A DNA stretch of 64,000 nucleotides from Candidatus Pseudoscillospira falkowii. GTDB taxonomy: Bacteria > Bacillota > Clostridia > Oscillospirales > Oscillospiraceae. The stretch spans positions 32,364-96,363 of the forward strand of contig CAJFFX010000002.1 in NCBI GenBank assembly GCA_904374485.1, in the 5' to 3' direction. Both the position numbers and the translations under genes were made by a program. Of the stretch, positions 37,979-49,412 are shown piece after piece. The notes under the pieces are model-generated. The model saw only the letters and a program-made list of their open reading frames with translations, did no database searches and was not told where the DNA came from. Each line of letters begins with the position of its first letter. Within the stretch, counting starts at the first letter, position 1.

Positions 37979-38548
37979 TCAATTCTTATAGGTACGGATG
38001 ATGCTTTGGGCGATCTCCGCCTTGGTGCAGCGCATGTTCATGGCCTGGCGCTCGATATAGTGGTGGGCGTTTTCCTCGCTCATCTTCAGACACTCGATCA
38101 GCACCAGCTTCGCCCGGTCCACCAGGCGGATCTCCTCGATCCGCTGCTGCAGGCGCGCATTCTCCCCCTTCAGCAGCTGCAGCCGCCGCTCCATGGTGCC
38201 CATCATGCGCATGGTGTACTGGAACATGCTGCGGCTGAGCGGCTTTCCCAGCACAAAAACGCCGGAGGATTCCGCCTGGGCATTGACCTCGGCCACCCGG
38301 TCCGCCTTGACCAGCAGCGCCACGCCCGCAGCGGTGGTCTCCGCAATGCGGCAGGCCAGGTCCGTACCGAATTCGTCCCGCAGGGGCGTGTTGACCACAG
38401 CCAGGTCGTATTCCTTTTCCGCCAGGCGGCGGCGGGCCTCCCCGCCATTCATGGCGAACTGGACGTCCTGCAGGCGCAGGTCCCGCAGCAGGTCGAACAG
38501 CGCTTTGACGCCCGCATCCGTACTGGATACAATCAAAGCAGTTTCCAT
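37979..38548 (-). CDS. ANTAR domain regulator with degenerate receiver domain
   Basis: C-terminal ANTAR (VDRAKLVLIECLKMSEENAHHYIERQAMNMRCTKAEIAQSII); REC-like N-terminus with VVNTPL in place of phospho-Asp loop. Confidence 0.88.
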   Translation of the reverse strand: METALIVSSTDAGVKALFDLLRDLRLQDVQFAMNGGEARRRLAEKEYDLAVVNTPLRDEFGTDLACRIAETTAAGVALLVKADRVAEVNAQAESSGVFVLGKPLSRSMFQYTMRMMGTMERRLQLLKGENARLQQRIEEIRLVDRAKLVLIECLKMSEENAHHYIERQAMNMRCTKAEIAQSIIRTYKN

Positions 38549-38584: not shown

Positions 38585-39850
38585 TCACAGCAGTTCAAAA
38601 TAGGTGCGCGCGTCATACTCCGCCTTATTCTTGGCCTTGGTATACCCGGCGGCCTGCTCCTGCTTGTTTTTCACATAGCTGCTGAACACGTCCTGGGGGA
38701 GATACGCCTTGGCAAAGGCGCCGCGGCCGGCGGCGCTCAGGGCCTGGCGCAGCGTCAGCGGCAGCTTGCCGCAGGCCGTTTCCATGGGGGGCAGGGTCTT
38801 TTCGGCGCGGATGCCCTCCAGGCCCGCGCGGATCAACAGCGCGTAAACCAGGTGGGGGTTAATGGCCGGGTCCGCCGCCGTCAGCTCCATGCGGCCCTTG
38901 ATGCCGGCGATGGCCGGGATGCAGACGGTGAAGCGTCCGCTCAGATTGGACCAGCCATGCTCCCGCCGGCTGTCGGCGCCGTAGGAATTCGTGGTGGATT
39001 TGAGATAGACCATCAGCTCGGGCAGGCGCTGGAGGATGCCGGCCACAAAGCTGCAGGCCTCAGGCTCCAGCGTCTTCTCCTCAAAAATATTTTTTCCGTC
39101 TTTATAAATCTCGAACATCAGCGTCAGGGCGCTGCTCTTCTCCTGCTCCAGGGGTTTGGGCATGAACGAGGCGTACAGCCCGTTGACCGCCGCCGCCTGC
39201 TTGACGACGGATTTGAAGGTCATGAAATTGTCGGCGGCGCTCAGCGCGTCGCTGCTGCGGAACACGACTTCGTTCTGCCCCGGGCCCACGGCGTGATGGG
39301 AGCTTTCGGGGACAATGCCCATTTCATACAGCGTCAGGCAGATGTCCCGGCGGACGTTCTCCCCCCGGTCGGCCGGCGCGATGTCGAAAAAGGTGCCCCG
39401 GTCCTGGGGCGTGTGGGTGGGCTCGCCGTTTTCATCGGTATTGAACAGATAAAATTCGCAGGCCGAGCCGATGCGGACGGCGTAGCCCGCCTCCGCCGCC
39501 TCCCGCACCGCTTTCTGCAGCATGTCGCGGGTATCGCCGCCGTAGGGCGTCCCGTCGGCGTTCATCAGGTCGCAGAACATGCGGGCCACACGGCCGGTAG
39601 AGGGCCGCCAGGGCAGCAGCGCCAGCGTCCGAGCGTCGGGGCGCAGCAGCAGCTTCGTGCCGGGAGTCAGATGGAAACCCGGCAGCTCCCAGGCGTTGAA
39701 GGGGATCCCGCTTTCAAAGGCGCGCTCCAGCTCCCCGGGCTGGAGCGAAATATTCTTCTGCAGGCCCATATTGTCGCAAAAGGCCAGGCGGATGAACTTC
39801 ACGTCGTTTTCCTTTACAAATGTCAGCACTTCTTTGCTGGAATCTTTCAT
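38585..39850 (-). CDS. Glutamine synthetase type I-like protein, catalytic motifs degenerate
   Basis: Clear GlnA fold similarity (VKYIRL-like start, VARMFCDLMNADGTPYGGDTRDML, FDIAPADRGENVRRDICLTLYEMGI, FMPKPL) but key motifs lost. Confidence 0.88.
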   Translation of the reverse strand: MKDSSKEVLTFVKENDVKFIRLAFCDNMGLQKNISLQPGELERAFESGIPFNAWELPGFHLTPGTKLLLRPDARTLALLPWRPSTGRVARMFCDLMNADGTPYGGDTRDMLQKAVREAAEAGYAVRIGSACEFYLFNTDENGEPTHTPQDRGTFFDIAPADRGENVRRDICLTLYEMGIVPESSHHAVGPGQNEVVFRSSDALSAADNFMTFKSVVKQAAAVNGLYASFMPKPLEQEKSSALTLMFEIYKDGKNIFEEKTLEPEACSFVAGILQRLPELMVYLKSTTNSYGADSRREHGWSNLSGRFTVCIPAIAGIKGRMELTAADPAINPHLVYALLIRAGLEGIRAEKTLPPMETACGKLPLTLRQALSAAGRGAFAKAYLPQDVFSSYVKNKQEQAAGYTKAKNKAEYDARTYFELL

Positions 39851-39943: not shown

Positions 39944-39972
39944 ATCATAGCCGAATCAATTGGCAGTGTAAA
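39944..39972 (-). promoter_or_regulatory. Putative promoter of GlnA-like/ANTAR genes
   Basis: Minus strand TTTACA-17-TATGAT. Confidence 0.55.
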
Positions 39973-40675
39973 GAGATTTGTAGGGATTATTTGTGTTGGG
40001 CGTCAGCACATAGAAGGGCTTTTCCAGGACCGTGTCCATCCCATAGCCGAAGCGGCGGCAGAATTCCTCCAGGTCGCCGCGGATCTCGTCCATATCCGCC
40101 GTCTCCGCCCGCCGGGCCGCCACCTGATCAGGGAGTTTCGGCAGCGCGTCGCAGCGGAGGTACATTTTTCCGCCGTGCATGCCCACGGCGCAGTAATAGC
40201 CCACCGGAGCCTCCTTTTCGCTTTCCAGCCCCAGCGCCACCAGAATGCCGCCGGCCTGGTATTCGCCGAAAAAGCTGCCCACTTCATTGCCGATGATAAT
40301 GATGGGCTTTTTGTCTTTGTATTCCTTCATGTGGATCCCCGTGCGGTAGCCGGCATTGCCCCGGACATAGATCTTTCCGCCGCGCATGGCGTAGCCGCAG
40401 GCGTCGCCGGCGCTGCCGTAAATGCAGATCATCCCGTCGTTCATGGTGTCGCCAATGGCGTCCTGGCCGCTGCCATGGACGTCGATGCGGCTTCCGTTGA
40501 GATAACAGCCCAGGGCGTTGCCCGGGGTGCCGTGGATCGTGATCTGCTTGTCCCGGGAGCCGGCGCCGATAAAGCGCTGGCCGCAGCAGTGGTCGATCTG
40601 GATCTGCGCGTCTTCCGCATCGCGGATCTGCCGGTCCAACGCCCGGTAGGACAGTCCCTTTGCGTCGATCTTCAT
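39956..40675 (-). CDS. Glutamate synthase GXGXG (alpha subunit C-terminal) domain protein
   Basis: Beta-helix repeat GNALGCYLNGSRIDVHGSGQDAIGDTMNDGMICIYGSAGDACGYAMRGGKIYVRGNAG. Confidence 0.92.
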   Translation of the reverse strand: MKIDAKGLSYRALDRQIRDAEDAQIQIDHCCGQRFIGAGSRDKQITIHGTPGNALGCYLNGSRIDVHGSGQDAIGDTMNDGMICIYGSAGDACGYAMRGGKIYVRGNAGYRTGIHMKEYKDKKPIIIIGNEVGSFFGEYQAGGILVALGLESEKEAPVGYYCAVGMHGGKMYLRCDALPKLPDQVAARRAETADMDEIRGDLEEFCRRFGYGMDTVLEKPFYVLTPNTNNPYKSLYTAN

Positions 40676-41904
40676 TTTGCCTTCCCTCCCAGCATTTCTT
40701 CCCGCACAGTGCGGTCGTACAGCATCAGCTGCGGTTTCTCCAGCAGCAGTTCCAAATCCACCTGCACCAAGGGCGTCCGCTTCTGGATCAGGGCCGTGTA
40801 GATCCCCGCCCGGCTGACGTCGCCCACAATGATAAAGCCTTTCAGCAGGCCGTCTTTGATCACCAGGCGGCGATAGCTGTTTTCGCCCCGGGTGATATGG
40901 CTTTCACCGTCGTAAGAGCCGGCAGTGACCAGGTGGACATCAAAAAATCCGCCAGCGTTCATGGGCATCGTCTCTGTAAACTCCTCTTGGCCGCCCGCCA
41001 TGGAAACGCCCGCGGCGCGGCCCTGCAGATAAGCGTTGGGCAGAATGGCGATCACACCCTTCCGGCCCGTGGTCAGATCTGTGCTTTCCGCGCAGTCGCC
41101 GGCGGCGTAAACATTCTCCAGCGTGGTGCGTCCGCTGCCGTCGATTACGATCCCTCTGTCCGCCGCCGCGCCCGCCCGGGCCGCCAATTCCGTGTTGGGC
41201 TGGACGCCCACAGCGGTAACGAGGATATCGAAGGGGATCCGCTCCCCGTTTTCCAGGATCGCCGCGTTCTTTTCAAATTTTTTGACCGATGTGCCCAGGT
41301 GAAAAACGCAGCCATGGCGTTCCATTTCCCGCTGAACCAGCGCCGCGGCCTCGTCGTCCAGCACCGAGGGCAGCACCCGCGGCGCCAGATCACAGATGTC
41401 GATACGGGCCACGCGCTGGGCGATACCCTCGGCACATTTCATGCCGATCAGGCCGGCACCCACGATGAAAACGCGGCTCTTTTCCGTCAGCATCTGCTCC
41501 AGCGCCAGCGCGTCATCCAGCGTCATAAAGGAAAAACGGTGCTCCACCTGTTCGATCCCCTCCATGGGCGGCAAGAACGGTCTGGACCCTGTCGCCACCA
41601 GAAGCCGGTCGTAGGGGACCCGTTCCCCGTCCTCCAGCAGCACGGTTTTGTTTTCCGCGTCGATCTCCGCGGCCCGCCGGCCCAGCATGGCCGTGACGCC
41701 CATGGTCTCATAAAAATCGGCGGGCCGATAGTTCATATGAGCAAGGTCCGTCCGCCCCATCAGAAGATAGGAGATCAGCGGGCGGCCGTAAGCCGCGTGA
41801 GGCTCGTCGGAAATCAGAGTGATGCTGCCCGCGCGGTCCACGCTGCGGATGCCCTCGATACAGCCGACAGCCGCCGCCGAATTGCCGATGACGACGTATT
41901 TCAT
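40672..41904 (-). CDS. FAD/NAD(P)-dependent oxidoreductase
   Basis: MKYVVIGNSAAAVGCIEGI; VFIVGAGLIGMKCAEGIA; NVYAAGDCAES. Confidence 0.9.
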   Translation of the reverse strand: MKYVVIGNSAAAVGCIEGIRSVDRAGSITLISDEPHAAYGRPLISYLLMGRTDLAHMNYRPADFYETMGVTAMLGRRAAEIDAENKTVLLEDGERVPYDRLLVATGSRPFLPPMEGIEQVEHRFSFMTLDDALALEQMLTEKSRVFIVGAGLIGMKCAEGIAQRVARIDICDLAPRVLPSVLDDEAAALVQREMERHGCVFHLGTSVKKFEKNAAILENGERIPFDILVTAVGVQPNTELAARAGAAADRGIVIDGSGRTTLENVYAAGDCAESTDLTTGRKGVIAILPNAYLQGRAAGVSMAGGQEEFTETMPMNAGGFFDVHLVTAGSYDGESHITRGENSYRRLVIKDGLLKGFIIVGDVSRAGIYTALIQKRTPLVQVDLELLLEKPQLMLYDRTVREEMLGGKAK

Positions 41905-42341
41905 GCCTCATCCACCTCCTCGAGAACAATGGCGCGGTTCGGACAATGCTGCACGCACAGGGGTTCGCCGAAAGCATTGTCCAGGCACAGCGCGCACTTC
42001 TGGGCCACGCCCGTGCCGCTGGGCATGATCGCTCCGTAGGGGCACAGCAGGATGCAGGTGCCGCAGCCCACGCACTTTTCCTGGTCGATCAGCACCGCAC
42101 CGCCCGGCTCTTTGTGCAGCGCGCCGGCGATGCACCCCGCCGCGCACAGCGGCTTTTCGCAGTGACGGCAATTGACCGCAAAGCTGACCTGCTGATCGCC
42201 CTCCACGATCAGGCGCGGATGGATCGGTTTATTCTGCAGCGCCTTGACCATATCGTCGCTGCCGGAGTTGGCAAAGGCGCAGAAATATTCGCACAGATGG
42301 CACCCGAGGCACCACTGCTCCCGCACAATGATTTTCTTCAT
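41901..42341 (-). CDS. 4Fe-4S dicluster ferredoxin-like electron transfer protein
   Basis: Multiple cysteine clusters (CLGCHLCEYFC, CRHCEKPLC, CVGCGTCILLCPYGAI). Confidence 0.92.
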   Translation of the reverse strand: MKKIIVREQWCLGCHLCEYFCAFANSGSDDMVKALQNKPIHPRLIVEGDQQVSFAVNCRHCEKPLCAAGCIAGALHKEPGGAVLIDQEKCVGCGTCILLCPYGAIMPSGTGVAQKCALCLDNAFGEPLCVQHCPNRAIVLEEVDEA

Positions 42342-42357: not shown

Positions 42358-43866
42358 TTATTCGCCGGCGTGCTTCACGCCGAGGATCTCCAGTTCTTTT
42401 TCGCTCAGGCCGATGCCGCGGAGCATCAGCCGGTTGCCCCGCAGGGCTTCGATGGAGTTGATGCCCATGCCGCCCAGGATCTCCTTGATCTCCCGCGTCC
42501 AGCCGGTGACCAGATTCACCAGCCGCTCCTCGCCGACCTCCGGATTCAGCCGCTTGACCAGATCGGGCCGTTGGGTAGCAATGCCCCAGTTGCACTTGTT
42601 GCGCGAGCAGCTGCGGCACAGATGGCAGCCCAGGGCCATCAGCGCCGCCGTGCCCAGATAGACCGCGTCCGCGCCCAGGGCGATGGCCTTGACCACATCG
42701 GCGCTGCAGCGGATGGATCCGCCGGCAATCAGAGAAACGCAGTTGCGGATGCCCTCTTCCCGCAGGCGGGCGTCCACCGCCGCCAGGGCCAGCTCGATGG
42801 GGATGCCCACATGGTCGCGGATCATGGTGGGCGCCGCGCCGGTGCCGCCGCGGAAGCCGTCGATGGCGATAATGTCCGCGCCGCTGCGGGCGATGCCGCT
42901 GGCGATGGCCGCCACGTTGTGGACCGCCGCCACCTTGACGATTACCGGCTTTTTGTAATCCGTGGCCTCCTTCAGCGAATCGATCAGCTGGCGCAGATCC
43001 TCGATGGAGTAGATATCGTGATGGGGCGCCGGGGAGATAGCGTCCGTGCCCAGGGGGATCATGCGGGTCCGGGACACGTCCTCGCCCACCTTTTCACCGG
43101 GCAGATGGCCGCCGATGCCCGGCTTTGCGCCCTGGCCCATTTTGATCTCGATGGCCGCGCCGGCGTCGAGATACCGCTCGTGGACGCCGAAGCGACCCGA
43201 GGCCACCTGGACGATGGTGTGGGCGCCGTAGGCGTAGAAATCCTCGTGGAGGCCGCCTTCGCCGGTGTTGTAGTAAATGCCGAGGCGCTCCGCCGCCCGG
43301 GCCAGGGCGAGATGGGCGTTGTAGCTGATAGCGCCGTAGGACATGGCGGAAAACAGGATCGGCGTTTCCAGCCGCAGGGAGGGCGGCAGATTGTCGATCA
43401 AACGGCCGCTGCCGTCGCGCTCCACCGGCACTTCCCGCTTTCCCAGATACACCCGGGTCTCCATAGGTTCGCGCAGCGGATCGATGGAGGGGTTCGTCAC
43501 CTGGGAGGCGTTGATAAGCAGATGATCCCAGTAAATGGGGTAGGGCTTCGGGTTGCCCATGGACGAGAGCAGCGCGCCGCCGCTGCCGGCCTGACGGTAA
43601 AGCTCTTTCATCGTCTGCATCGACCAGTTGGTGTTGGGACGATACTGGTTGCGGTTTTCAACGATCTGCAGCGCGTGGGTCGGGCAGATGCACACGCAGC
43701 GCTGGCAGTCCACGCAGTCGGCGCTGTCGCTGTACATGCGGTTTTCCTCCGCGTCGTAGCGATGCACCAGATTGGCGCACTGCCGCTCGCAGGCGCGGCA
43801 CTGGATACAGCGGCAGGGGTCGCGCAGCACTTCAAATTCCGGGGAAATGTATTCCTGGGGCAGCAT
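42358..43866 (-). CDS. Glutamate synthase FMN-binding domain protein with N-terminal 4Fe-4S clusters (archaeal-type)
   Basis: CIQCRACERQC, CVDCQRCVCICP; GEGGLHEDFYAYGAHTIVQVASGRFGV; IKMGQGAKPGIGGHLPG. Confidence 0.94.
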   Translation of the reverse strand: MLPQEYISPEFEVLRDPCRCIQCRACERQCANLVHRYDAEENRMYSDSADCVDCQRCVCICPTHALQIVENRNQYRPNTNWSMQTMKELYRQAGSGGALLSSMGNPKPYPIYWDHLLINASQVTNPSIDPLREPMETRVYLGKREVPVERDGSGRLIDNLPPSLRLETPILFSAMSYGAISYNAHLALARAAERLGIYYNTGEGGLHEDFYAYGAHTIVQVASGRFGVHERYLDAGAAIEIKMGQGAKPGIGGHLPGEKVGEDVSRTRMIPLGTDAISPAPHHDIYSIEDLRQLIDSLKEATDYKKPVIVKVAAVHNVAAIASGIARSGADIIAIDGFRGGTGAAPTMIRDHVGIPIELALAAVDARLREEGIRNCVSLIAGGSIRCSADVVKAIALGADAVYLGTAALMALGCHLCRSCSRNKCNWGIATQRPDLVKRLNPEVGEERLVNLVTGWTREIKEILGGMGINSIEALRGNRLMLRGIGLSEKELEILGVKHAGE

Positions 43867-44957
43867 CAGCGCCCACCTCCTTTCACAGTGACGATCACGC
43901 CTTCTCCGCCGTGAGGCGCCCAGACGCGGTCCAGCTCCGGCTCCACAATGCGGATTGCGGCTTCTTCCGAGGCGATGTAGACTCGGCTCCCCTTTTCGCC
44001 CACCACCATGCTGCGCAGCTTCAGCCGGTCGTTGAGGGCCATCAGGCCGCCGGTGAAGCCGAGGATGATGGAAAAGGGGCCGGTGATCAGCATGTCGGGA
44101 AAGCGCTTGCGCAGATACGTGGCCGCGGCGCGCTCCGCCTCCGGCAGGGCGTCGATATTTTCCCAGAAGGAAGCCGCCGTCACCATGGCCGCCTCCTGCA
44201 GCGTCAGGTGCTGGCGCTCCAGAAGATAGTCGAAGATATAGGCGATGGCCTCGGTGTCGGTCAGCAGGTCGCAGTGGTAGCCGTACATTTCGATGGCGCG
44301 GCGGTTGGCATCATAGGACGAGATCTCGCCGTTGTGGACGACGGAATAATCCAGGATGCCGAAAGGATGGGCGCCGCCCCACCAGCCGGGGGTATTGGTG
44401 GGATAGCGGCCGTGGGCCGTCCAGCTGTAGCCGCTGTATTCCTCCAGGCGGTAAAAATCGCCCACGTCTTCGGGATAGCCCACCGCCTTGAAAATGCCCA
44501 TGTTTTTGCCGCTGGAAAACACAAAAGCGCCGGGGATTTTTTCATTGATGTGGAACACGCAGGCGGAGACGAACTCCCGCTCGCCCTTCAGGCTCTCCAC
44601 CTGCTTGCGGGGGATGGGGCTGGCAAAATAGCGCCAGATCATGGGGGCGTCCTTCACGCCCCGGTTCAGCCGCGTGGGGATCTCGCCCGCGCCGGTGAGC
44701 GAAAAGTTCCGGTGCAGAAATTCCTCGCAGGCGATCTTGGCCTGCTCGCTGTCGTAAAAAATGTGGAACGCGTAAAAATCGGCGTACTCCGGGTAGATAC
44801 CGTAGCCGGCAAACCCGCCGCCCAGGCCGTTGCTCCGGTCGTGCATCAGCGCGATGGAGTCGATGATCGCCTCGCCGCTGAAGCGTTTTCCGCTTTTGTC
44901 GATGATCCCGGAGATCGCGCAGCCGGAGGGGATACGGACCTCGCCTTCCCGTTTCAT
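43866..44957 (-). CDS. Class II glutamine amidotransferase (glutamate synthase glutaminase domain)
   Basis: MKREGEVRIPSGCAISGIIDKSG; HGRYPTNTPGWWGGAHPF; VVHNGEISSYDANRR. Confidence 0.9.
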   Translation of the reverse strand: MKREGEVRIPSGCAISGIIDKSGKRFSGEAIIDSIALMHDRSNGLGGGFAGYGIYPEYADFYAFHIFYDSEQAKIACEEFLHRNFSLTGAGEIPTRLNRGVKDAPMIWRYFASPIPRKQVESLKGEREFVSACVFHINEKIPGAFVFSSGKNMGIFKAVGYPEDVGDFYRLEEYSGYSWTAHGRYPTNTPGWWGGAHPFGILDYSVVHNGEISSYDANRRAIEMYGYHCDLLTDTEAIAYIFDYLLERQHLTLQEAAMVTAASFWENIDALPEAERAAATYLRKRFPDMLITGPFSIILGFTGGLMALNDRLKLRSMVVGEKGSRVYIASEEAAIRIVEPELDRVWAPHGGEGVIVTVKGGGR

Positions 44958-45038: not shown

Positions 45039-45098
45039 AAAAAAGGACGCTCCGGGGACGGCCCTGCCGCAGCCGGCAGCGCCTTCCCAGAACGTCCT
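45039..45098 (-). terminator. Leader terminator (attenuator) upstream of glutamate synthase operon
   Basis: AGGACGTTCTGGG...CCCCGGAGCGTCCT TTTTT on minus strand, between promoter and first CDS. Confidence 0.75.
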
Positions 45099-45150
45099 TG
45101 TCCTCAACACAAATGCAATTGTAGCGCGGATACAGTTTTGGATTGCTCCT

Positions 45151-45179
45151 ATTATACGGGCCTGCTCCCGATTTGTCAA
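45151..45179 (-). promoter_or_regulatory. Promoter of glutamate synthase operon
   Basis: Minus strand TTGACA-17-TATAAT, perfect consensus. Confidence 0.82.
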
Positions 45180-45342: not shown

Positions 45343-45370
45343 TTGACATTTTTCCGCACGATGCTATACT
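45343..45370 (+). promoter_or_regulatory. Promoter of GSIII gene
   Basis: TTGACA-16-TATACT. Confidence 0.75.
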
Positions 45371-45378
45371 ACACCTAT

Positions 45379-45427
45379 CAGCAATGGCGCTGTGGGGCAA
45401 TCGCTTCCCGCAGCGCCTTTTCTTTTT
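45379..45427 (+). terminator. Leader attenuator of GSIII with upstream hexaloop hairpin
   Basis: CAGC-AATGGC-GCTG hairpin competes with terminator GGCGCTGTGGGG...TCCCGCAGCGCC TTTTCTTTTT. Confidence 0.72.
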
Positions 45428-45471: not shown

Positions 45472-47568
45472 ATGTCAGAAGCATCCAGTTTCGTTCCTTC
45501 GATCTTCGGCAGCATGGTCTTCAACGAAACCGTCATGAAGGAGCGCCTTCCCAAAGACACCTACAAGGCACTGAAAAAATGCAAGGACGAGGGCATTCCT
45601 CTGGATATGTCCGTGGCCACCGTCATCGCCAACGCAATGAAGGACTGGGCCCTGGAAAAGGGCGCCACCCACTATACCCACTGGTTCCAGCCCATGACCG
45701 GCGTCACCGCAGAAAAGCACGACAGCTTCATCTCTCCCACCGACGGCGGCGGCGTGATTATGGAGTTTTCCGGCAAAGAGCTGGTGCGCGGCGAGCCCGA
45801 CGCCTCCTCCTTCCCCTCCGGCGGCCTGCGCGCCACCTTTGAGGCCCGCGGCTACACCGCCTGGGACCCCACGTCCTACGCCTTTATCAAGGACGGCAGC
45901 CTCTATATCCCCACGGTGTTCTTCTCCTACGGCGGCGAGGCCCTGGATAAAAAGACGCCTCTGCTGCGCTCCATGGACGAGCTGAGCAAGCAGGCGCTGC
46001 GCGTGCTCCGTCTCTTCGGCGACACCACCACCAAGAAGGTCACCGCCAGCATTGGTCCGGAGCAGGAGTATTTCCTGATCGACAAAAAGACTTACGAGCA
46101 GCGCGAGGACCTGATCATGACCGGCCGCACCCTGTTCGGCGCCAAGCCCCCCAAGGGCCAGGAAATGGACGACCACTATTTCGGCACCCTCAAGCCCCGC
46201 ATCGCCGCCTATATGAAGGATCTGGACGAGGAGCTGTGGAAGCTGGGCATCCTGGCCAAGACGAAGCACAACGAGGTGGCCCCCGCCCAGCACGAGCTGG
46301 CCCCCATCTTCTCCGACGCCAACACCGCTGCCGACCACAATCAGCTGACCATGGAGATCATGAAAAAGGTGGCCGCCAAGCACGGTCTGGTGTGTCTGCT
46401 GCATGAAAAGCCCTTTGCCGGTGTCAACGGCTCCGGCAAACACGACAACTGGTCCATTTCCACCGATACGGGCAGAAACCTGCTGGATCCCGGCAAGACC
46501 CCCCGCGACAATGCTCAGTTCCTGCTGTTTTTGGCGGCCGTCATCAAGGGCGTGGACGATTATCAGGAAATGCTGCGCTGCACCGTGGCCTCCGCCGGTA
46601 ACGACCACCGCCTGGGCGCCAACGAAGCGCCTCCTGCCGTGATCTCCATCTTCCTGGGCGACGAGCTGAACGCCGTGCTGGAATCCATCGAACGCGGCAC
46701 CGCCTACCACGAAAAGGCCCAGAGCGCCCTGGAGGTCGGCGTGGACGCCCTGCCCCACATTTCCCAGGACACCACGGACCGCAACCGCACCTCCCCCCTG
46801 GCTTTCACCGGCAACAAGTTCGAATTCCGCATGCTGGGCTCCGAGCAGTCCATCTCCGGCCCGAACATCGCGCTGAACACCATCGTGGCCGAAGAGCTGT
46901 GCCAGTTCGCGGACAAACTGGAAAAGTCCAAGAACTTCAACAAGGATCTGCAGGCGCTGCTGCAGAAGACCATCAAGGAACACAAGCGCATCATCTTCAA
47001 CGGCAACGGCTATGACGAGTCCTGGCTGGCCGAAGCGGAGGAGCGCGGCCTGGCGAACCTGAAGAACACCCCCGAAGCCATGCGCGCCTATATCTCCCCG
47101 AAGAACATCAAGCTCTTCACCAAGCACAACATCTACACCGAGACCGAGATGAAGGCCCGCTATGAGATCCACCTGGAAAGCTACAGCAAGGTGATCAATA
47201 TCGAGGCCCAGACCATGGCCGACATGGTCAAGCGCGACATCCTGCCTGCCGTGTCTTCCTACATGGAAAGCATCAGCTCCGCCGTGCTGAACAAAAAGGC
47301 CGTTTGCAAGGACCTGCCCTGCATTGCGGAAACGGAGACCCTCAAAAAGCTCTCCGGCCTGAGCGACAGCCTGTATCTCAAGTGCGCCGAGTTGGAGACC
47401 GCCCTGGTCAAGATCCCCAAGGACGCCCAGAAAGCCGCCCTGTATTACCACGACACGGTCTTCGCCCTGATGCAGGAAATGCGCGCCATCGCCGACGAGA
47501 TGGAAACCATGACCTCTGCGGAATACTGGCCCTATCCTTCTTACGGCGAGATGCTGTTCAACATCTGA
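45472..47568 (+). CDS. glnN: Glutamine synthetase type III
   Basis: ~700-aa [62 protein letters not shown]. Confidence 0.96.
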
Positions 47569-47609
47569 CCGCACCCTGATTTTCATTACCCTCTCTTCTT
47601 TTCACACGA

Positions 47610-47648
47610 AGGCGTGTGCTCCCAAAACGGGAGTACACGCCTTTTTTC
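47610..47648 (+). terminator. Intrinsic terminator between GSIII and amtB
   Basis: GGCGTGTGCTCCC-AAAA-CGGGAGTACACGCC TTTTTT. Confidence 0.85.
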
Positions 47649-47726: not shown

Positions 47727-49412
47727 ATGGACATGAGTACATGGTATCTTTTGGGCGCTGTTCTGGTGTTCTTTATGGGCGCCGGATTCGCCATGGTGGA
47801 AACCGGCTTTACCCGAGCCAAAAACGCCGGCAACATCATTATGAAAAACTTTATGGATTTTTGCATCGGTACGATTTTCTTCATTTTGCTGGGATACGGC
47901 ATCATGAATTCCGAAAATTATCTGTTTGGTCTGATCGGCAGGCCGACCTACCAAATGTTTACGGATTTTAACGACTTCAACTGGTCCAACTTCTTCTTCC
48001 AGCTGGTATTCTGCGGCACCTGCGCGACGATCGTCTCCGGCGCTATGGCAGAACGCACGAAATTCAGCGCTTACTGCATCTATTCGGCGGTCATCAGCGC
48101 CGTTGTCTACCCCATTGAGGCGGGCTGGGTCTGGAACGCCCAGGGCTGGCTGGCCCAGCTTGGCTTTATCGATTTCGCCGGCTCCGCCGTGATTCATATG
48201 GTCGGCGGCATCACTGCGTTCATCGGCGCGGCGCTGCTGGGCGCCCGCATCGGTAAATACGGAAAGGACGGCACGCCCCGCGCCATTCCCGGCCACGCCA
48301 TCACCCTGGGTGCTCTGGGCTGCTTTATCCTGTGGTTCTGCTGGTACGGCTTCAACGGCGCGGCAGCCACCGACACCATTCAGCTGGCGCAGATCCTCTG
48401 CACCACCACGCTGGCCCCCGCTTCCGCCACGCTGACCGTAATGCTTTTCACCTGGGCAAAATACGGCCGTCCTGACGTTTCCATGACGCTGAACGGCTCC
48501 CTTGCCGGTCTGGTGGCCGTCACCGCCGGCTGCGCCGCCGTGGACGGACTCGGCGCGCTAATCATCGGCGTTGTCTCCGGTTTTCTGGTCTGCTTCGGCA
48601 TTTGGTTTTTGGATTATAAGGTCCATGTGGACGATCCGGTGGGCGCCGTGGCCGTGCATGGCTTCAACGGCATCTGGGGCGCCATCGCCGTGGGACTCTT
48701 CGACCGCACGAACGGCCTGTTCTACGGCGGCGGCTTCCACCAGCTGGGCATCCAGCTTTTGGGCGTGATCGCCATTGCCGCATATACCTTTGCCGTCATG
48801 TATATCGTATTCAAACTTCTCAAAGTTACCCTCGGCCTGCGCGTCCCCGTGGAGGTCGAGGTGCAGGGCCTTGACGTTCACGAGCACGGCCTGCAGAGCG
48901 CCTACGCCGACTTTATGCCCGCCGTTTCCACCCTGTCCTTCAGCCAGGGCACGGAGATGTCTACCGCCAAAGTCACCGGCAGCGCGACGGTGGAGGAAGC
49001 GGTGCCCGTAACGCACAAAAAGAGCGCGCCCGTCGCCGGCGACGGCGTGAAGCTCACCAAGATCGAAATGTACTGCAACCCCGCCCACTTCGATCCCCTG
49101 AAAGAAGCGCTGGAAAAAATCGGCATTACCGGCATGACCGTGACCAACATCATGGGCTGCGGCGCCCAGCGCGGGGCCACCGGCTCCTACCGCGGTGTTA
49201 AGCTGCACATGACGCTGCTGCCGAAGATCCGCGTCGACGTTGTGGTGGCCAAGATCCCCGCCCAGGTCGTGATCGACGCCGCCAAACAGGCGCTGTACAC
49301 CGGCCATGTGGGCGACGGCAAAATCTTTGTCTACGATGTGGAGGACGCCGTCAAGGTGCGTACCGGCGCCACCGGCTACGATGCGCTCCAGGACGAGCCC
49401 GACCTGAACTGA
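47727..49412 (+). CDS. amtB: Ammonium transporter AmtB with C-terminal fused PII (GlnK) domain
   Basis: Amt motifs (FAMVETGFTRAKN, FDFAGSAVIHMVGG-like) then KLTKIEMYCNPAHFDPLKEALEKIGITGMTVTNIMGCGAQRG...VGDGKIFVYDVEDAVKVRTG. Confidence 0.95.
   Translation: MDMSTWYLLGAVLVFFMGAGFAMVETGFTRAKNAGNIIMKNFMDFCIGTIFFILLGYGIMNSENYLFGLIGRPTYQMFTDFNDFNWSNFFFQLVFCGTCATIVSGAMAERTKFSAYCIYSAVISAVVYPIEAGWVWNAQGWLAQLGFIDFAGSAVIHMVGGITAFIGAALLGARIGKYGKDGTPRAIPGHAITLGALGCFILWFCWYGFNGAAATDTIQLAQILCTTTLAPASATLTVMLFTWAKYGRPDVSMTLNGSLAGLVAVTAGCAAVDGLGALIIGVVSGFLVCFGIWFLDYKVHVDDPVGAVAVHGFNGIWGAIAVGLFDRTNGLFYGGGFHQLGIQLLGVIAIAAYTFAVMYIVFKLLKVTLGLRVPVEVEVQGLDVHEHGLQSAYADFMPAVSTLSFSQGTEMSTAKVTGSATVEEAVPVTHKKSAPVAGDGVKLTKIEMYCNPAHFDPLKEALEKIGITGMTVTNIMGCGAQRGATGSYRGVKLHMTLLPKIRVDVVVAKIPAQVVIDAAKQALYTGHVGDGKIFVYDVEDAVKVRTGATGYDALQDEPDLN

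Follow-up and report, generated by a model that had tools for sequence, protein, structure and literature searches.

The window, that is, the whole stretch of 64,000 nucleotides of DNA analysed here, carries seven co-directional genes for an amidotransferase, an FMN glutamate synthase, a 4Fe-4S protein, an FAD oxidoreductase, a GXGXG protein, a protein resembling glutamine synthetase (GS) and an ANTAR response regulator. A GSIII gene and a gene for an ammonium transporter fused to PII (Amt-PII) are oriented opposite to this GOGAT/GS-like/ANTAR set. The features of the locus are as follows:

37979..38548 (-), ANTAR antiterminator with a pseudo-receiver, the phosphoacceptor Asp being replaced by Asn (Pfam ANTAR 1.2e-14)
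38585..39850 (-), GSI-alpha-like pseudoenzyme, predicted 2-oxoglutarate (2-OG) receptor (421 aa, ATG start)
39956..40675 (-), GXGXG subunit of a split glutamate synthase (GOGAT) (domain search)
40672..41904 (-), FAD/NAD(P) oxidoreductase subunit of the GOGAT operon (domain search)
41901..42341 (-), 4Fe-4S protein of the GOGAT operon (domain search)
42358..43866 (-), FMN-binding glutamate synthase core subunit (Glu_synthase 2e-139)
43866..44957 (-), class-II glutamine amidotransferase subunit of GOGAT (start inferred; open frame to 45179)
45045..45104 (-), leader of the GOGAT operon with an ANTAR-type hexaloop hairpin, AGGAC[AAGGAC]GUUCU, over an intrinsic terminator
45151..45179 (-), sigma-70-like promoter of the GOGAT operon, TTGACA / TATAAT (consensus match only)
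45343..45370 (+), sigma-70-like promoter of GSIII, TTGACA / TATACT (consensus match only)
45379..45416 (+), leader of GSIII with a hexaloop hairpin, CAGC[AAUGGC]GCUG, over an intrinsic terminator
45472..47568 (+), GSIII, 698 aa, presumed catalytic glutamine synthetase (GSIII_N 5.1e-80)
47605..47640 (+), leader of Amt-PII, between GSIII and amt, with a hexaloop hairpin, CACG[AAGGCG]UGUG, over an intrinsic terminator
47727..49412 (+), ammonium transporter fused to a PII domain (domain search, with the query taken from one codon upstream)

In the genome, which is 86% complete, GSIII is the sole other GS that we found, and a single ANTAR gene was detected.

The GS-like open reading frame (38585-39850, minus strand) matched both GS domains in Pfam (Gln-synt_C, 2.6e-61; Gln-synt_N, 1.1e-13). 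Its score with the NCBIfam GlnA model was 242.7 bits, far under the equivalog cut-off of 429 bits, and the gamma-glutamylputrescine synthetase model gave 157 bits for a cut-off of 650. An AlphaFold2 model (pLDDT 90.5, pTM 0.92) displays a confident GS fold with both the beta-grasp and the catalytic domain of a full type I enzyme (GSI-alpha), and the nearest solved structure is the active dodecameric GS of M. mazei (8s59, TM 0.92). We aligned the residues of the protein to solved structures and to M. mazei GS, and scored the six metal ligands E129, E131, E212, E220, H269 and E357 (E. coli numbering, window residues in brackets). Three of the six are missing, Glu129 (A130), Glu212 (A187) and His269 (T243), and each metal site is hit at least once. 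Asp50 (N52), Gly265 (S239), Arg339 (G305), Arg344 (C310) and Arg359 (T324) are replaced as well, and the flap, NSYKRLVPGYEAP, has lost five residues, Arg321 and Glu327 among them. Of the arginines that bind glutamate and ATP, most are absent; Glu131 (E132), Glu220 (E194), Arg355 (R320) and Glu357 (E322) are retained.

The identical set of substitutions is carried by an 82%-identical relative (recorded as L004 and L085, probably the same genome fetched twice). The dN/dS ratio is about 0.05 for both the GS-like gene and its ANTAR neighbour, close to that of the GOGAT genes of the operon; the estimate is soft, as dS is near saturation. The substitutions are therefore not sequencing noise, and their presence in this relative together with strong purifying selection points to a fixed pseudoenzyme. 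The loss of the active site in this GSI-alpha homologue is plain; that the protein is catalytically dead is inferred from its sequence, without activity data. The sequence-only reading had called it a GS pseudoenzyme on the basis of a list of motif replacements, all of which proved correct, and had named as a refutation an alignment in which the catalytic Glu, His and Arg residues are retained. In our alignment Glu129, Glu212, His269, Arg339 and Arg359 are lost and Glu131, Glu220, Arg355 and Glu357 kept, so that the claim, resting on the lost metal ligands, Asp50, substrate arginines and flap, held. Its two other assignments, an adjoining ANTAR regulator (directly downstream) and a GSIII encoded in the window, held as well.

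Loss of metal ligands recurs among relatives. At least one ligand was missing in 20 of the 82 rows of a first tree (window included), which amounts to 8 changes, at least 5 of them forced, i.e., required by well-supported branches. A larger tree held 24 such proteins and 12 changes (at least 4 forced), and the full set 37 proteins with approximately 20 state changes on a FastTree tree. The ANTAR-paired proteins lacking one or more metal ligands number 35, in 21 clusters below 60% identity, and few copies are as degraded as that of the window. All metal ligands were present in 21 of 21 canonical-type GSI in the first control, and five canonical-type or intermediate proteins of the larger set lacked some of them. 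A separate protein of GSIII size is encoded by 18 of the 19 checked genomes with a broken copy. Many relatives at the level of Oscillospiraceae keep their metal ligands and have a short C-terminus and a Lys near the position of the flap Glu, where the alignment is uncertain since the loop is one residue shorter.

Two further observations concern the diversity of these proteins. In members of the window family such as L096, L118 and L131, the C-terminus is shorter by about 35 residues; the missing part is where GS has the helices connecting its two rings, and these proteins might therefore form single hexamers. L287 and L288, canonical-type or intermediate GSI encoded beside an ANTAR gene, have each lost four metal ligands with the 2-OG motif intact, and could represent a second group of candidate GS pseudoenzymes.

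The pairing with an ANTAR gene is strongly conserved. An ANTAR response regulator lies beside the GS-like gene in nearly all of 80 relatives from a species-level genome collection, and in the enlarged set at most 1 kb downstream of 180 of the 184 testable GS-like genes and of 66 of the 97 canonical-type GSI genes. The GS-like/ANTAR pairing is widespread in Clostridia, and was also seen in Treponema and Fibrobacteria. As sampling started from relatives of the window protein, these frequencies are not unbiased, and most of the genomes compared are metagenome-assembled. The GXGXG gene was found upstream in only about half of the GS-like loci (59/114 with an intact copy, 10/22 with a broken one), whereas ANTAR lay beside nearly all loci in the same comparison (118/120 intact, 22/24 broken). 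The receivers of the ANTAR partners rarely display the phosphoacceptor Asp: it is present in 14 of 174 partners of GS-like proteins (1/30 for broken copies, 13/144 for intact ones), and in 7 of 61 partners of intact canonical-type GSI. This suggests that their input is probably a bound protein rather than a kinase. We searched for GS-ANTAR gene fusions and found none; long N-terminal extensions resembled chance open frames.

A candidate ligand is provided by archaeal enzymes. The GSI-alpha of M. mazei and M. thermolithotrophicus bind 2-OG between subunits through F24, R26, R87, R172', R173' and S189' (PMC11957540; equivalents in PMC10799026), and structures of the Bacillus type have no such site (PMC11957540, PMC10799026); they show a blocking Tyr and Glu and are without the key Arg (PMC10799026). 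In the window protein none of the six is missing (F19, R21, R82, R167, R168 and S184), and it has non-blocking S35 and V88 at the two blocking positions (40 and 93 in M. mazei numbering). F24, R26, R87, R172, R173 and S189 (M. mazei numbering) are likewise kept by 35 of the 35 ANTAR-paired proteins that have lost metal ligands, a retention in excess of that of random sets of equally universal positions (p = 0.001; p = 0.003 for 21 cluster representatives below 60% identity, and 0.003-0.007 with a conservation-matched pool). The excess was weak in the first, smaller set (p 0.03-0.12), and limiting the test to ANTAR-paired members was a choice made after this weaker result. Two broken GS-like paralogues without an ANTAR neighbour, L095 and L114, have lost the equivalent of R87; metal ligands, too, are lost in both.

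Among canonical-type GSI, the full 2-OG motif is found in 61 of 66 proteins with ANTAR vs. 12 of 31 without (Fisher, 3.8e-8). After tree correction approximately 4.6 pairs agree and 0.1 are opposed (median sign-test p 0.06), a trend in the same direction that is not significant and is suggestive at most. The full motif is absent from 16 of the 180 ANTAR-paired GS-like proteins. As most clostridial GSI with an ANTAR partner conserve the 2-OG residues, their retention may partly reflect an inherited structure of the subunit interface. Of 102 canonical-type proteins, 87 have the Arg of glutamine feedback (Bacillus R62, M. mazei R66), as against 1 of 188 GS-like ones; the window protein has a Leu at this position, and the part of the flap with the equivalent of Glu304 is deleted. 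Judged by its residues, the 2-OG site is the one known ligand site left intact in the GS-like protein; that it binds 2-OG is inferred. Glutamine sensing by a feedback-inhibited GS, in analogy to TnrA/GlnR, was considered and rejected, R62 and the flap Glu being missing.

ANTAR proteins bind hairpins that overlap terminators and whose hexaloop has A1 and G4 (PMC3369931, PMC3369936). As an Rfam search of the window matched only a tRNA, we located the leaders by scanning for hexaloops and terminators; besides the three intergenic ones listed above, three other matches fall in coding frames or have dissimilar loops. A hairpin overlapping a terminator was found upstream of GSIII in 31 of 42 loci of relatives, and taking the set of 43 leaders together, we observed 32 hairpin/terminator leaders vs. 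0.2 expected from shuffles. The GOGAT leaders of relatives gave 15 of 19 (0.6 expected) and their amt leaders 9 of 20 (0.05 expected), the expectation being derived from shuffling by 2-base blocks, a rough control. In GSIII and GOGAT leaders of most relatives, the hairpin usually begins no more than a few bases from where transcription is predicted to start. Dual P1/P2 hairpins were sought, yet we saw a single clear hairpin directly behind the promoter, with P1 candidates in just 2 of 19 GOGAT leaders; the single-hairpin leaders of GSIII and GOGAT might represent a minimal ANTAR target. When the genome was searched with a 12-base pattern, the only exact matches were the GSIII leader and one intragenic site, and matches with one mismatch were no commoner than in the control.

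We propose that the GS-like protein is an intracellular 2-OG receptor for the ANTAR antiterminator encoded by the adjacent gene. With plentiful nitrogen and low 2-OG, the ligand-free GS-like oligomer would act on the non-phosphorylatable receiver domain of the ANTAR protein and so keep that protein inactive. Upon nitrogen scarcity, 2-OG would bind at the subunit interface, to F19, R21 and R82 and to R167, R168 and S184 of the next subunit, and the ensuing change in the shape of the ring would free or activate the ANTAR protein. The latter would stabilize the hexaloop hairpin in the GSIII, GOGAT and Amt-PII leaders and thereby exclude the overlapping terminator, allowing these genes to be expressed. 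This direction of control is drawn from the analogy to NasS-NasT and AmiC-AmiR (PMC3795266), and from the fact that NitR targets are induced when nitrogen is limiting (PMC6316151). What we observed is that the active site and the phosphoacceptor are lost, that the pair is conserved and the 2-OG residues are retained, and that the leaders carry hairpins overlapping terminators. Ligand binding, contact between the proteins, the direction of control and antitermination itself are inferred, as there are no binding, interaction or expression data. In archaea, 2-OG acts by priming catalysis, which would be meaningless in a dead enzyme; the conformational change alone could be reused. We consider a regulatory role of the GS-like protein with its ANTAR partner likely, and lean only slightly towards the whole statement, with 2-OG as the inferred ligand.

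The sequence-only reading had also suggested that the GS-like protein and the ANTAR protein act together as a nitrogen sensor, in a control mode other than GlnR/TnrA. Comparison supports this link, with physical contact and ligand binding being inferred: a survey of GSI-like genes beside ANTAR genes shows a pairing conserved across phyla and an active site lost many times with the ANTAR gene retained. The suggestion can be refined in that the pairing is not confined to dead copies, catalytic-looking GSI beside ANTAR being common; that the likely signal, by inference, is 2-OG rather than glutamine, since the glutamine-feedback Arg is absent and the 2-OG site intact; and that predicted targets are visible as leader hairpins. 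A bolder reading would be that ANTAR-paired GSI across Clostridia and some other phyla are 2-OG receptors first and enzymes second, that catalysis was lost repeatedly because sensing does not need it, and that recurrent GS pseudoenzyme sensors control GSIII, GOGAT and Amt by RNA antitermination. This reading, taken as a whole, could as well prove wrong as right.

Several alternatives have to be weighed against this proposal. The GS-like protein might be a regulatory partner of the ANTAR protein that senses another signal (glutamine, glutamate, a nucleotide, subunits of GSIII or GOGAT, or GlnK/PII) through contacts outside the 2-OG site. Irrespective of the ligand, a role in regulation is supported by the pairing and by the active site having been lost repeatedly; moreover, the window has an Amt-PII gene close by, and GOGAT operons often include the GS-like gene. 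Yet the glutamine-feedback Arg and the flap Glu are gone, as are most glutamate and ATP arginines in the window copy, the 2-OG site is intact, and we regard this alternative as unlikely. Even less probable, in our opinion, is that the protein is still an enzyme with an altered reaction, e.g., a gamma-glutamyl ligase acting on another substrate (GSI-gamma-like). GS relatives often make other gamma-glutamyl products, and E132, E194, R320 and E322 remain. However, half of the six metal ligands have disappeared along with Asp50, the flap and the phosphate arginines, different ligands are lost in other clades, which fits relaxation over a new active site, and the gamma-glutamylputrescine synthetase model scores far too low (157 vs. 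650 bits).

We find it similarly hard to believe that the protein is a structural subunit or an allosteric regulator of GOGAT or GSIII, with ANTAR merely co-transcribed: the GS-like gene lies in a GOGAT operon here and in many relatives, but it is ANTAR that stays beside nearly all loci, and GXGXG that is upstream of only about half. Finally, the gene could be a decaying pseudogene of a redundant glnA, its activity being supplied by GSIII (the GSIII gene is there; its activity is inferred). The open reading frame is intact, however, dN/dS is about 0.05, the substitutions are common to the 82%-identical relative and the fold is confident, and this explanation, already contradicted by the signal of selection, can practically be dismissed.

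The proposed 2-OG receptor can be compared with several known systems. ANTAR control of GS/GOGAT genes is itself known (PMC3369931, PMC6316151): NitR, an ANTAR protein of Clostridium saccharobutylicum, induces GS/GOGAT genes when nitrogen becomes limiting (PMC6316151, citing Stutz 2007), and a similar cluster in C. thermocellum, Clo1313_2030-2036, is co-expressed (PMC4676874). The mechanism of clostridial nitrogen control via ANTAR proteins such as NitR is incompletely understood (PMC6316151). Our system is alike in having a predicted ANTAR antiterminator for GS/GOGAT; the sensor GS and the 2-OG ligand are our proposals. In the open-access literature that we searched, no GS, dead or active, is described as an ANTAR sensor (subscription papers such as Stutz 2007 were outside our scope), and we found there no 2-OG ligand, neighboring-GS sensor or catalytically dead GS for NitR. 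The GS as ANTAR sensor and the assignment of 2-OG as its ligand thus seem to be new, NitR-type control of GS/GOGAT being known.

In AmiC-AmiR and NasS-NasT, the ANTAR protein is controlled by a partner that binds a ligand, with antitermination in the leader, and AmiR has a non-phosphorylated pseudo-receiver (PMC3369936, PMC3795266); the window ANTAR likewise is without a phosphoacceptor (D to N). AmiC and NasS are transport-type small-molecule binding proteins, whereas the candidate sensor here has a GS fold, so that the GS-like/ANTAR pair would resemble these systems in logic, by analogy and with a ligand-controlled complex being inferred, without being a member. EutV recognizes a dual P1/P2 element, and the leaders described here have a lone hairpin. 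The window protein shares the six 2-OG side chains and the open blocking positions with the GSI-alpha of M. mazei and M. thermolithotrophicus, but these are active enzymes switched on by 2-OG, and the window protein is, by inference, dead. In the GS-GlnR and GS-TnrA circuits of Bacillus, a GSI-alpha informs a transcriptional regulator of the nitrogen status (PMC9249791). That GS is an active enzyme, its feedback inhibition by glutamine via R62 and E304 serves as the signal, and its partners are DNA-binding proteins. The window protein has lost R62, E304 and, by inference, catalysis, and the neighbor is an ANTAR response regulator of the RNA-binding type instead of a DNA-binding protein of the GlnR/TnrA type, in agreement with the different control mode suggested earlier. 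The proposal names a candidate sensor, a ligand for it, the residues concerned and three leaders as targets, each of which can be tested directly. If the proposal is true, the allosteric site of an enzyme has outlived its active site, repeatedly in independent lineages, and common gut bacteria would possess a mode of nitrogen control distinct from GlnR/TnrA.
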